A stretch of DNA of 31,846 bases, taken from the IMG/VR virus record IMGVR_UViG_3300027746_001062, positions 1 to 31,846 of that record; one strand, 5' to 3'. Below the pieces are notes generated by a model. The model had not been told where the DNA came from and did not search any database. It was given only the letters and a program-made list of their open reading frames with translations. How positions within the stretch are numbered: position 1 is the first letter of the stretch; each line of letters starts with the position of its first letter. The stretch is from a virus. Both the position numbers and the translations under genes were made by a program. Below, in pieces: positions 5,425 through 14,028 of this stretch.

Positions 5425-6480
5425 TCAAGTTTGAAACACAAACTCCTGAGACACAATTCCACCCCTGCGAAGATTAAGTAAAATTTCGTCCCAGTTGGAT
5501 TCAAATGCCCAACGCTCAAAAGAGCTTGGCCGCTGGTCTAATCCATAAAATATCAAGGTATGTAGCTCGTCAGAAAAGTCACCGGTTGCATGCCAAAATT
5601 TATCAGCGGTGGGATATGATTTTTGTGGTTGATGAGTTCTCTTGGGCATAAGGATTGAGCCAGCAGGATATGTTAAATTTTGAAACAAAGACAACATATT
5701 TTTCTGTTCTCTACCTGTGATAGTTTCTTTGAATTTTTCTGGATAATACCCTTGGGATTCAAACTGTGGTACAAGGTCAGATAGATAAGCATTTAGAACA
5801 GCAGCGCCTGAACCTGTGCAGATTGATTCTGGAGTATCCATGACCTGATTAAATGCTCTATCTACATATAAAAATTTCCATTGTTGACTGGCTGAATCAA
5901 ACCATATATTAGGCTGTTGAAATCCAAACAAATCAAACTGATTCACATTGTCTAGTACGGACCGACACTGGTTGTTGTATTCATAGATACCTTTCATCAT
6001 GCCTGGCTCTACATAGCAAAAATGCATGAACTTTTTATGCCACTCGGGGTCAGAGTAAAACCAATTGAAATAATCGTTGTCGCAATTGATTATGGTCAGT
6101 TTGGTTGATGCAAATTTTTCTTTATAGTGTTGTGCAACCGGGATAGCACATCGATCAACCTCGGCCAAGTTGCAAAACACCACCAATGGATCAGTTGGAG
6201 TGTATCGAACCATCACAATTTCGTCAAACGCAATGTCATACTTGAGCGCAGTGTCAAGAACTATACGTGAGTCGGGGCCGCCAGAAAACCAAAAACGCAA
6301 ATAAGAATGTTGATCTCTTAAATGAAGCAAATGATCTCTAACAGCATGTTCAAAACTAACAGCACGGTTGATTGAAAATTTGTAATCGTCAAATCCGTTA
6401 CCCAACACAAACTTATAGTCAGCAGTGTAGTCGATATCCCATTGAGAATACACAAGTTTTGTGTTGTTGACGTAGTGCAT
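5425..6480 (-). CDS. PP-loop ATPase-like protein (asparagine synthetase C-domain type)
   Basis: 351 aa. Residues 65-71 read FSGGPDS, the pyrophosphate-binding PP-loop of ATP-pyrophosphatases such as asparagine synthetase, GMP synthetase and tRNA thiolases; it is followed by an alpha helix (RIVLDTALKY) and a strand (EIVMVRYT) as the fold demands. Such enzymes adenylate a carbonyl or amide and then transfer nitrogen or sulfur. No glutaminase domain is present, so the nitrogen donor is unknown. Its ATG overlaps the stop of the TctC gene (TAATG). Neighbouring transferase genes suggest modification of a sugar or small molecule; the exact reaction cannot be read. Confidence 0.65.
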   Translation of the reverse strand: MHYVNNTKLVYSQWDIDYTADYKFVLGNGFDDYKFSINRAVSFEHAVRDHLLHLRDQHSYLRFWFSGGPDSRIVLDTALKYDIAFDEIVMVRYTPTDPLVVFCNLAEVDRCAIPVAQHYKEKFASTKLTIINCDNDYFNWFYSDPEWHKKFMHFCYVEPGMMKGIYEYNNQCRSVLDNVNQFDLFGFQQPNIWFDSASQQWKFLYVDRAFNQVMDTPESICTGSGAAVLNAYLSDLVPQFESQGYYPEKFKETITGREQKNMLSLFQNLTYPAGSILMPKRTHQPQKSYPTADKFWHATGDFSDELHTLIFYGLDQRPSSFERWAFESNWDEILLNLRRGGIVSQEFVFQT

Positions 6481-7343
6481 TATTTTTTAATTGATTTCAA
6501 CAGAAAGTCAACTTGCTCATCAGCTGATGCCGTGGACATTTTTGTCATGAACTGTCTGGTCTTGAAATAGTCTTGCAGCGGTTGTGTCTGCAACAATCTA
6601 GCCATATCAGCTCGTAATTCAGTTTGAAGACTGGCAGGAATATTTTTAGAAGCAGCATATACCATCATGTAGTAGTTCATGACACTTTGATTGATTTCAC
6701 CCAGCGGGCGTGTGCCCAACAACTCAGTTGGACCAGTATTGTGAGTACACACTGCCTGACCATTGCGTTCGATAACTTTACCCGAAGTTCCTAATACGTA
6801 TTCAGTTTCTTGTGCAGCAGCACCTCGTATCTGCGCCCCACTACCGGTATAAATCACAGTTTTGACTGTGCCCGGACTAGCAGCCCTGATAGCATCAGTG
6901 ACCCAGGTCAGTGTGCTTGGAAACGCTTGAACACTGATACGATATGTACCGGGTGTGGTAAAAATAGCATTGGGCGCAGTTTTGCCCACAGCACAAAGAT
7001 AGTCTGGTGCATAGTACCAAATTGATATCATGTTTTGTGCAGCCGGCGGCGCAAGATAACATTCGTGATCTAACGGCAGCAGATGATCTCGATTGGACCA
7101 TACTGCTATTGTGGGTTTCTTGGTAACCTTTAGCTCTTGCGCCATGGCTGCACAGTTGCCGTTGTATAACACAATTGATGTGTCCCACCCCAGTTGTTTA
7201 AGACCTGGAGTCAACAGTTCAGCAATATTTTGATCATTTGTTCCGCCGCCCCACGGAATCAAAAATGTAAATGTTTTGTCAGCAGCTGATGCGCTAACAG
7301 CAATAACCATAGCAGTCACGAGAGTCAATAGTTTTTTAATCAT
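6480..7343 (-). CDS. TctC/Bug-family periplasmic solute-binding protein
   Basis: 287 aa. A clear Sec signal peptide (KKLL, hydrophobic core to residue 17, cleavage near ASA-AD) directs it to the periplasm. The mature protein opens with FTFLIPWGGGTNDQNIAELL, the equivalent of the VPxxPGGxxDxxAR ligand-binding segment of TctC/Bug receptors, and the length is slightly below the usual 300-330. It would capture a carboxylate ligand for a tripartite tricarboxylate transporter (TTT). It sits 20 bp after a TctA-like permease gene, with AAAGGAT as Shine-Dalgarno. Bug proteins are very abundant in betaproteobacteria, which fits the suspected host. Ligand not predictable. Confidence 0.8.
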   Translation of the reverse strand: MIKKLLTLVTAMVIAVSASAADKTFTFLIPWGGGTNDQNIAELLTPGLKQLGWDTSIVLYNGNCAAMAQELKVTKKPTIAVWSNRDHLLPLDHECYLAPPAAQNMISIWYYAPDYLCAVGKTAPNAIFTTPGTYRISVQAFPSTLTWVTDAIRAASPGTVKTVIYTGSGAQIRGAAAQETEYVLGTSGKVIERNGQAVCTHNTGPTELLGTRPLGEINQSVMNYYMMVYAASKNIPASLQTELRADMARLLQTQPLQDYFKTRQFMTKMSTASADEQVDFLLKSIKK

Positions 7344-7363
7344 AGAGTATCCTTTAAAGTTGA

Positions 7364-8668
7364 TTATAGAACATATAGTTGCAAAAGTCTATATGCAGTT
7401 GGCCAAAAGTGTGGTCCAATAAGCCACACAAAGATCATCGGAACAGGATCAATTTTTTTCCAGTATAAAAAACGTCCTATCACGACAGAAATTGCAAAAA
7501 CAATCATGTAAAAGACTGAGCGATCTGAGTCCATGCCCAGATACCAAACATCACAAGCTATTAGTGCAAAAATAAAATAAAATACATATCGATTGTATCT
7601 AACAAACCAGTTGATCATTTGTGTGACATAATGTACACAAAATGCAAGGCATGCTACTATTCCAAATAGTATGCCCACTCCCATTTTTAAATAAGTGTCC
7701 ATGCTGAGTTGATTGATTGACCAACCACGATCGGTTAACAAATTGACCACTATGGCCTCACTTGGTTGTATGGCTACTCCAAATATCAACAATGGAAAAA
7801 GAACAGATATAACAGCAGCATTGTTTGCAGCTTCTGCTGAACTGATCCGTGAAAGTGCTGTACTAGAATTGATCTTAGATTCAACATAATGTGCAGTAGA
7901 CGCACTTACAGTCACTCCAATCAAGGGCAACAACCCAGTTAAAAATCCAATAACAGTTCCACGTGCCATTACTGCTGCGGGCACTAGTTGTATTGGACGG
8001 GTAGTATCAACTGAACCAGCATCCGCAAGATTCATTTTGGACATGTCTGACATTGCTGCAAACAACATGGGGATAGCATATATGCCCAGCAACACAGGCA
8101 GAAACGGAAGTCCGCCAACTAAAAACTCAACTCCCATTGTGAGGATAGATTTGCCCAAAAACTGATTATACCCAATCAAACTACCCACAAGTCCTGCAGC
8201 ACACAGCAATAAATTTGTACGGAATCTATTTCCGGCCCAGCCCAGAGCAGAAAATACCACCATGATCAAAATAACAAAGAAAACATCAGTGCGAAGAAAT
8301 TGTCGAAACTCGGCACCAAACTGCATCAATATACCAAGCATCACTACCGATGCTAGCGTGGCAACAGCACTGGCCTGTCCAGTTCTGTATAATGCAGTCC
8401 ATAACAGGTTGGAATTGATGATTTCGCGACGTTCTTTAAGCACTGGAATTGTCGTGACGTCTCCAGCCAAGCCAAGCCACAATCCAACCACACTTGAACT
8501 AAACTGTCCGCAAGTGATCATGGTGGCATAAAATGCAATCAAAGTATTGAATTCTAAATGTGACACAAATGGATACAACATGATCATCATCACACTGTCT
8601 CCTATTGCTGGCAGCATTCCTACTAGCAATCCCATTGGGATCGCAAGAAGCACTATAAAAAATTCCAT
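7364..8668 (-). CDS. TctA-like permease of a tripartite tricarboxylate transporter
   Basis: 434 aa, very hydrophobic, about ten or more membrane helices. Two related motifs, GMLPAIG (17-23) and GLLPLIG (245-251), reflect the internal duplication of TctA, and SAEAANNAAV (277-286) matches the conserved ANNA signature of the family. TctA is the large subunit that moves tri- or dicarboxylates with ions across the inner membrane. Typical TctA is about 500 aa, so this one is short, and no TctB small subunit is seen nearby, although the last four hydrophobic stretches could partly stand in for it. Upstream partner of the TctC gene. A transporter gene in a phage is an auxiliary metabolic gene. Confidence 0.8.
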   Translation of the reverse strand: MEFFIVLLAIPMGLLVGMLPAIGDSVMMIMLYPFVSHLEFNTLIAFYATMITCGQFSSSVVGLWLGLAGDVTTIPVLKERREIINSNLLWTALYRTGQASAVATLASVVMLGILMQFGAEFRQFLRTDVFFVILIMVVFSALGWAGNRFRTNLLLCAAGLVGSLIGYNQFLGKSILTMGVEFLVGGLPFLPVLLGIYAIPMLFAAMSDMSKMNLADAGSVDTTRPIQLVPAAVMARGTVIGFLTGLLPLIGVTVSASTAHYVESKINSSTALSRISSAEAANNAAVISVLFPLLIFGVAIQPSEAIVVNLLTDRGWSINQLSMDTYLKMGVGILFGIVACLAFCVHYVTQMINWFVRYNRYVFYFIFALIACDVWYLGMDSDRSVFYMIVFAISVVIGRFLYWKKIDPVPMIFVWLIGPHFWPTAYRLLQLYVL

Positions 8669-10163: not shown

Positions 10164-10180
10164 ACTGGCTCCTTTGTAGA

Positions 10181-10188
10181 TATTTATT
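10181..10188 (-). promoter_or_regulatory. Late-type promoter box AATAAATA
   Basis: AATAAATA, then 17 nt containing AAAGGAG, then the ATG at 10163. It follows the tmRNA terminator directly, so it would restart transcription there. Confidence 0.55.
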
Positions 10189-10192
10189 GCAG

Positions 10193-10220
10193 CCAAAAAA
10201 AAGCCCACCGAAGCGGGCTT
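10193..10220 (-). terminator. Intrinsic terminator of the tmRNA gene
   Basis: Minus strand AAGCCCGC-TTCG-GTGGGCTT followed by eight T. Eight-pair stem with UUCG loop. Confidence 0.92.
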
Positions 10221-10221
10221 G

Positions 10222-10545
10222 GTTGTTTCTGTTACGAGGTATTTCCTACCCTAGGCAGCGTTTAGGCGGCCAATGCGAACAGTTCGTCGTTTGCGTTTAC
10301 GGTTTTTCTTCTTTTTACAAGGTTGCTCTTGTGCTGTCCACTCTGTTACTCTTTGCCCTGTCGAAACTATGCAGGCCCATCAAAAGCATACTATTTTAGT
10401 CTGAGCGCATCACATGCGACTTTTTGACTCAACGACCTAGTATGCTTATGGTGGACCTGGGAGGATTCGCACCCCCGTCCAGAACACTTTTCTCTTTGCT
10501 TCATACAGCAATAACTCTTACTTATCACCAAGTTTTCCGAGCGAT
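10222..10545 (-). ncRNA. ssrA: Circularly permuted two-piece tmRNA
   Basis: Read 5' to 3' on the minus strand, the acceptor piece comes first, with T arm GGACGGGGGTGCGAATCC and terminal CCA at 10449; then a 70-nt intervening segment (10379-10448) bounded by a 10-bp inverted repeat AAGCATACTA/TAGTATGCTT; then the coding piece starting at 10378 with GGGCCTG and the tmRNA-type TAGTTTCGAC. GGGCCTG pairs over 7 bp with CAGGTCC of the acceptor piece. The tag frame 10294-10262 encodes ANDELFALAA then TAA. tmRNA rescues stalled ribosomes and tags their products for proteolysis. The order proves a permuted gene, as in betaproteobacteria. Outer ends are approximate. Confidence 0.93.
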
Positions 10546-10668
10546 CCAATGTTGTATCCGTTGTACTCGCCACGCTAGTCCCCGGGGCAGTGTGAAAAAT
10601 ATCTTTGTACCATTAGGTGTATACATGGTTTTACCATCATTGTCAACTCCCATTAACCCAATAAACAT
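10525..10668 (-). CDS. Possible 47-aa protein overlapping the tmRNA acceptor piece
   Basis: Frame MFIGLMGVDNDGKTMYTPNG... to TGA at 10525, with AAGGG 7 nt before the ATG. The first half looks protein-like. However, a sigma70-type promoter lies inside it and its end overlaps the tmRNA 5' region, so it may be a chance frame or a short gene upstream of the tmRNA. No family recognised. Confidence 0.3.
   Translation of the reverse strand: MFIGLMGVDNDGKTMYTPNGTKIFFTLPRGLAWRVQRIQHWIARKTW
10618..10646 (-). promoter_or_regulatory. Likely tmRNA promoter
   Basis: TTGACA (10646-10641), 17-nt spacer, TATACA (10623-10618), about 160 nt before the acceptor CCA. Perfect -35 box, weaker -10. Confidence 0.6.
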
Positions 10669-12554: not shown

Positions 12555-12812
12555 TCACACAGTTGATTGTTTTTGTAATACATCTTTAACATAATCTGCT
12601 ACGGATTGTACTGTAACAAATATACTCATAGCAGTTTCACGATTGGGGATGTTCAATTCAATGCCAAATTCGTCTTCGATGCTAAAAATGATTTCTGCAC
12701 GATCCAAACTATCTGCATTTAAATCTGACAGATTATCAGTCAATGCCACTGGCTCATCAAGCCGCATTTCACTGGTGATAATTTTTACAATTTTTTCTTC
12801 AATTTCAGTCAT
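12555..12812 (-). CDS. Acyl carrier protein
   Basis: 85 aa. The motif LNADSLDRAEIIFSIEDEFGIEL is the phosphopantetheine site and helix II of acyl carrier proteins, with Ser 35 as the attachment residue. Acidic helical protein of normal length. Holo-ACP carries acyl chains as thioesters. Start ATG at 12812 with AAAGGACC. A sigma70-type promoter (12830-12859) lies inside the end of the sulfotransferase gene. A matching holo-ACP synthase is encoded at 13735-14028. It may serve acylation of a surface molecule or redirect host fatty-acid synthesis. Confidence 0.92.
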   Translation of the reverse strand: MTEIEEKIVKIITSEMRLDEPVALTDNLSDLNADSLDRAEIIFSIEDEFGIELNIPNRETAMSIFVTVQSVADYVKDVLQKQSTV

Positions 12813-13709: not shown

Positions 13710-13738
13710 AGTATAGCAGGAAAACTATTTATGGTCAA
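13710..13738 (-). promoter_or_regulatory. Sigma70-type promoter of tRNA-Met/tRNA-Arg
   Basis: TTGACC (13738-13733), 17-nt spacer, TATACT (13715-13710), 8 nt before the tRNA-Met 5' end. The -35 overlaps the stop codon of the holo-ACP synthase gene. Confidence 0.82.
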
Positions 13739-14028
13739 TCTACAATTGCTCGAACTGCAATCGCCCAACACATACCACCATCATGAGTGGATGAAACACT
13801 GCAATTTGCGCTGGTTGGTTGTCCATTTTCATCATTGATGACATTTTCCAAAATACCGCAGCATTTGAATATGGCTTCTTTGATTGCCCAACGTGAAGCT
13901 AGGTATTCAGGGCGACGACGACGTTGAACCCATTGTGTGTAAACTTGATCGTTGAAAATTCTTTGAACTTTTCTGTCCGGCCAATTTTGAAATCTTGCCA
14001 CAGCAATTATATCACAACCTATATTCAT
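13735..14028 (-). CDS. Holo-ACP synthase (AcpS-type phosphopantetheinyl transferase)
   Basis: 97 aa. GCDIIAVARF (Asp 6) and LASRWAIKEAIFK (Glu 51) are the magnesium/CoA-binding motifs of AcpS, and SSTHDGGMCWAIAV corresponds to the late SISHxxxxAxA segment. AcpS transfers 4'-phosphopantetheine from CoA to the serine of apo-ACP. At 97 aa it is shorter than the usual 120-130. Its partner ACP is encoded about 1 kb downstream (12555-12812). ATG at 14028 directly after the stop of the upstream gene. Phage copies of both carrier and activator argue for a dedicated pathway. Confidence 0.9.
   Translation of the reverse strand: MNIGCDIIAVARFQNWPDRKVQRIFNDQVYTQWVQRRRRPEYLASRWAIKEAIFKCCGILENVINDENGQPTSANCSVSSTHDGGMCWAIAVRAIVD

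Follow-up and report, generated by a model that had tools for sequence, protein, structure and literature searches.

The window, that is, the whole stretch of DNA that was analysed, is a record of the IMG/VR virus collection with a length of 31,846 bases; on its minus strand, at about 10513-10221, lies a two-piece tmRNA gene, circularly permuted and complete. ARAGORN places a permuted tmRNA at 10171-10541. In the cmscan search, RF04321 (tmRNA_permuted) scores 123.8 bits at 10262-10510 (E 5e-24), against a cut-off of 47, and RF01850 (beta_tmRNA) scores 118.6 bits at 10198-10563 (E 8e-36), against a cut-off of 84. Each model aligns end to end on the gene, and the scores, both above the curated cut-offs, are far above chance and alone settle the reality of the gene. 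The folding of the precursor on its own (z = -1.9) is weaker evidence than the covariance models. The features of the locus, and the related loci discussed below, are collected in Table 1.

Table 1. Features of the tmRNA locus and positions of the long-tag loci of related phages.
Feature	Position	Strand	Evidence
Acceptor (tRNA-like 3') piece: T-arm, CAGGTCC, CCA	10449..10513 (5' end approximate)	-	Rfam, ARAGORN, sequence
3' acceptor strand CAGGTCC, then ACCA to 10449	10459-10453	-	sequence
70-nt intervening segment, presumably excised	10379..10448	-	sequence, phage spacer comparison
Perfect 10-bp inverted repeat AAGCATACTA/TAGTATGCTT	10447-10438 / 10393-10384	-	sequence
Coding (mRNA-like) piece	10221..10378 (3' end approximate)	-	Rfam, ARAGORN
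5' acceptor strand GGGCCTG, opens the coding piece	10378-10372	-	sequence
Tag frame GCA AAC GAC GAA CTG TTC GCA TTG GCC GCC TAA (ANDELFALAA-stop)	10262..10294	-	ARAGORN
Intrinsic terminator AAGCCCGC-TTCG-GTGGGCTT, then T-run	10193..10220	-	terminator scan
Putative promoter-like element GATAAGTA, weak ATAAATA/TATAAT match with one mismatch (function inferred)	10519..10526	-	96-locus enrichment
Conserved 47-aa ORF (MFIGLMGVDNDGKTMYTP...KTW), outside the tmRNA, ends at the tmRNA 5' end	10525..10668	-	relatives in six other viral loci
Long-tag permuted tmRNA loci	L161:13014-13433; L173:4137-4568; L182:13743-14181		
Further long-tag loci	L158, L154, L097, L080, L116, L052, L065		

In the order of transcription, the acceptor piece with its CCA is followed by the 70-nt spacer, the coding piece with the tag frame, and the terminator. 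The first-pass annotation had described this permuted arrangement, with the acceptor piece first, and had proposed an Infernal search with the permuted models; ARAGORN and the two Rfam models agree with it, and RF01850 places the gene in the beta type. Three other elements of that description are also borne out: the tag, which ARAGORN reads identically, the perfect arms of the inverted repeat that bounds the intervening segment, and the 7-bp acceptor stem. This stem, GGGCCUG/CAGGUCC, forms only by joining the two pieces, and all seven of its pairs are present, including G3-U70, which is the alanine identity pair. The latter is kept in 199 of the 201 viral and in all 45 bacterial permuted genes analysed. 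The CCA is encoded, as it is in 88 of 89 viral loci that were not chosen for this feature, versus 16 of 45 bacterial loci. The tag frame is intact, with a stop codon and the usual hydrophobic ALAA end.

The annotation had proposed a promoter and a terminator; the terminator, a hairpin followed by a T-run, stands, but the promoter does not. The site that most resembles a sigma-70 promoter (TTGACA-17-TATACA, 10646-10618) falls within the 47-aa ORF, whose relatives in L220, L084, L100 and L231 are 85-91% identical, with synonymous changes at least as numerous as non-synonymous ones, and the pair of hexamers is absent from these same four loci. We have therefore rejected this site. In the 30 bases upstream of the conserved tmRNA start motif of 96 phage loci, an exact ATAAATA is present in 26 (3.4 in shuffles) and an exact TATAAT in 30 (5.8 in shuffles). 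This enrichment, together with the failure of the sigma-70 site, makes a T4-late-like or minus-10-like element the better guess for the promoter of the window gene, albeit an unproven one. As a side observation, the close relative at L220:8918-9252 keeps the small ORF and an ANDELFALAA frame, but ARAGORN calls no tmRNA there; past the ORF its sequence is unlike that of the window and may have been altered by recombination.

The inverted repeat of the spacer is one instance of a more general element. In 141 distinct viral spacers, a single helix keeps a fixed register: the bases directly after the CCA pair with those that end four before the GGG. At positions 2-11 of this helix, 78-100% of the spacers are paired, above all 300 shuffles at each position, and the longest helix is well above that of shuffled spacers. 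Compensatory changes of all kinds are seen: pair 5, for instance, is CG in 52 spacers, GC in 31, AT in 18 and TA in 17, so that it is paired in 136 of 141 (60 in shuffles). A shorter version of this helix is found in bacterial spacers, the median spacer length being 29 nt in bacteria versus 86 nt in phages. The fixed register, the covariation and the bacterial counterpart suggest that the helix is an old processing element, which would bring the two cut sites together.

That the gene sits in a phage, as had been proposed, is supported by its relatives, by its presence in a virus collection and by the neighbouring genes. QueD, QueE, GTP cyclohydrolase, MazG-like and exonuclease genes of the window match phage families, and the exonuclease shares 54% identity with its counterpart in PA5oct-type jumbo phages. 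Where a permuted tmRNA occurs together with a homologue of this exonuclease (up to 98% identical to that of the window in the large relatives), the records are contigs of 174-364 kb, and a large terminase was found in 10 of the 14 tested. No terminase was identified in the 31.8-kb window itself; judged by the size and the terminases of its relatives, the window is a fragment of a jumbo-phage genome. A separate contig, L229, contains a 99.4% identical stretch that includes the tmRNA locus, while cultured phages gave only short and weak DNA matches. Two gene pairs are, among the compared loci, common only to the window and L229. The first, at 6480-8668 on the minus strand, consists of a gene for a transporter of the TctA family (PF01970, E 7e-36) and the adjoining gene of a 287-aa protein without Pfam match, which may be its binding protein. 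The second consists of acyl carrier protein-like and 4'-phosphopantetheinyl transferase-like genes, close together on the minus strand (12555-12812 and 13735-14028).

Sequence and comparison give the gene, the order of its parts, its stem, spacer helix and tag, and its phage context, and we consider it very probable that this is a functional, phage-borne ssrA gene that works as follows. Extrapolating from what is known of tmRNAs, a single precursor would be transcribed from the minus strand, the spacer helix would place the CCA end next to the 5' end with its GGG, and the spacer would be excised by tRNA-processing enzymes of the host; the acceptor stem and the neighbouring helix would then hold the two pieces together. 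The host alanyl-tRNA synthetase would charge the RNA by recognizing G3-U70, A73 and CCA, and host SmpB and EF-Tu would deliver it to stalled ribosomes. Translation would resume on GCA and append (A)ANDELFALAA, whose ALAA end would direct the tagged product to host ClpXP-type proteases. The benefit for the phage would probably be that ribosomes are recycled at a time of message degradation. A search for SmpB that was positive in 10 of 14 control genomes found none in 12 large relatives, which suggests that the partner is the SmpB of the host; since the host is expected to supply this protein, its absence from the phages does not exclude a function of the tmRNA. As far as can be read from the gene, everything that is needed on the RNA side for charging, rescue and tagging is intact. 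The most likely main role, and a plausible one, would be ordinary trans-translation, which frees ribosomes during infection with the help of host SmpB.

Two-piece tmRNAs of phages are not new in themselves, since they have already been published: the study of the Methylophilales phage Melnitz counted 53 two-piece structures among 133 phage tmRNAs, and 50 of these 53 came from marine or aquatic samples (PMC9004378). Melnitz, like the window, is an aquatic phage that encodes a permuted two-piece tmRNA, but its gene is of the alphaproteobacterial type and has a glutamine riboswitch, whereas the window gene is of the beta type and the Rfam search detected no riboswitch. The tmRNA database, whose authors built RF04321, lists 79 bacteriophage tmRNAs (PMC11915505). 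Huge phages have also been reported in which the tmRNA is part of a translation toolkit, as it would be in the window; these encode SmpB (PMC7162821), unlike the 12 relatives tested here. The betaproteobacterial genes described by RF01850 share with the window gene the order of the pieces, the acceptor stem, the helix at the spacer ends and a tag of the ANDxxFALAA type, but the window gene differs from them by its longer spacer, its encoded CCA, a residue of the tag and its separate clade in the tree.

It may be asked whether the tag itself is what the phage needs. For Melnitz, it has been speculated that a phage tmRNA mainly serves to relabel or destroy host proteins with a phage-specific tag (PMC9004378). 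The exact tag pattern of the window occurs in 54 viral contigs and in none of the contigs of a bacterial and archaeal genome collection; this zero is meaningful since a relaxed pattern gives at least 120 matches in the same collection. Moreover, phage tags vary around ANDERFALAA, which is the commonest bacterial tag and is found in only 3 of the 104 loci of the T-arm sample. These observations speak for relabelling, but part of the bacterial sample was selected through the tag, and in the window it is a middle residue that has changed while the ALAA end recognized by proteases has not. We regard this explanation as unlikely for the window gene, and retain ordinary ribosome rescue.

Another possibility is that the gene was recently captured from a betaproteobacterial host, is passively carried, and reports the host. 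The beta_tmRNA model does fit best, and the phage tags resemble the ANDERFALAA of hosts. Against this, a tree built from 199 permuted genes places the window in virus-only sets of 3, 7 and 12 rows, all starred, and in a larger one of 144 rows (96/95) that is again virus-only; the 40 bacterial rows, none of which falls in that set, are grouped together with 13 viral rows on the opposite side. The bootstrap of this tree had not settled, and its bacteria come only from tag-pattern hits and from the order to which a Rhodocyclus genome belongs; the tree is therefore good but not final evidence of a long history in phages. Of 300 genomes of that order, just 17 score above the permuted cut-off, and no full-length DNA match to the window tmRNA was found in 369 genomes of the class. 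The longer spacers of phages and the absence of the exact tag from the bacterial and archaeal collection also speak against a capture, which we consider quite improbable. The gene rather appears to belong to a large phage-only branch than to be a recent copy of a host gene. The annotation had expected the tmRNA to mark the host lineage; with a virus-only clade and no close bacterial relative in the 369 genomes of the class, this expectation is not upheld, and the gene does not name the host, beyond its likely relation to betaproteobacterial tmRNAs. The TctA-like transporter, considered as another clue to the host, was uninformative: none of 100 genomes of the order matched it at the strict cut-off.

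Permuted beta-type tmRNAs are also found on large plasmids. The only plasmid matches are those of Cupriavidus megaplasmids, which are about 84% identical but cover only 32% of the query; one of them, L271, has the tag ANDEKFALAA. The Cupriavidus genome G004, to which L271 belongs, has five permuted tmRNA matches over the cut-off and a weak one, some of which are on a plasmid. Separately, L365, a contig of 3,004 bases in a bacterial bin, carries a phage-like permuted tmRNA with the tag ANDEQFALAA; the genome that holds it also has a weak standard-type match, and L365 is possibly a phage contig that was binned with a bacterium.

That the RNA is a decoy or an inhibitor of host trans-translation is very improbable: interference with host translation is a known trait of phages, and a tag-less tmRNA of mycobacteriophage DS6A is reported to act in this way in work cited in PMC11915505, but in the window the tag frame, the stop codon, the ALAA end, the CCA and G3-U70 are all intact, and the phage relatives keep their tag frames.

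Some of these relatives have tags that are more unusual than the window gene itself. In jumbo-phage relatives, permuted tmRNAs carry tags of 27-32 aa, most of which end in LAV or FAV, not in ALAA; an example is AKANTGEVTVSGKNVKFSARTAQRQSLAV, followed by a stop, and TGEVTVSGKNVKFSAR is common to many. The exonucleases of three of these phages (L161, L173 and L182) are 77-80% identical to that of the window, and Rfam confirmed a tmRNA at all four long-tag places tested (L161, L173, L514, L538). The core pattern of the long tags is found in 62 viral contigs. All 34 distinct peptides that were read contain TGEVTV and end in AV, but the constancy of TGEVT proves nothing, because it is fixed by the search pattern itself. 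Non-synonymous changes are found at residues 2-4, 12-15 and 18-27. Among the differing codon pairs of the 29-aa tags, 1557 are synonymous and 3676 non-synonymous, a synonymous share of 0.30 versus 0.26 expected, from which alone purifying selection cannot be deduced for the tag as a whole. The peptides have no match in Pfam, PHROGs or, by tblastn, in phage records. A likeness to the C-terminal end of the HU protein, seen by eye, had no statistical support and was not retained.

Taken with the covarying spacer helix and the phage-specific tags, these comparisons suggest that the beta-type permuted tmRNAs of aquatic jumbo phages form a lineage of their own. It is possible, although we hold it to be doubtful, that these phages keep an old, host-independent two-piece lineage whose tags, from ANDELFALAA to those of 27-32 aa that mostly end in LAV or FAV, redirect the fate of the proteins of stalled ribosomes. 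A lineage proper to phages makes it testable whether they merely borrow ribosome rescue or change its outcome, and the long tags of the relatives, which do not end in ALAA, are the best place for such a test.
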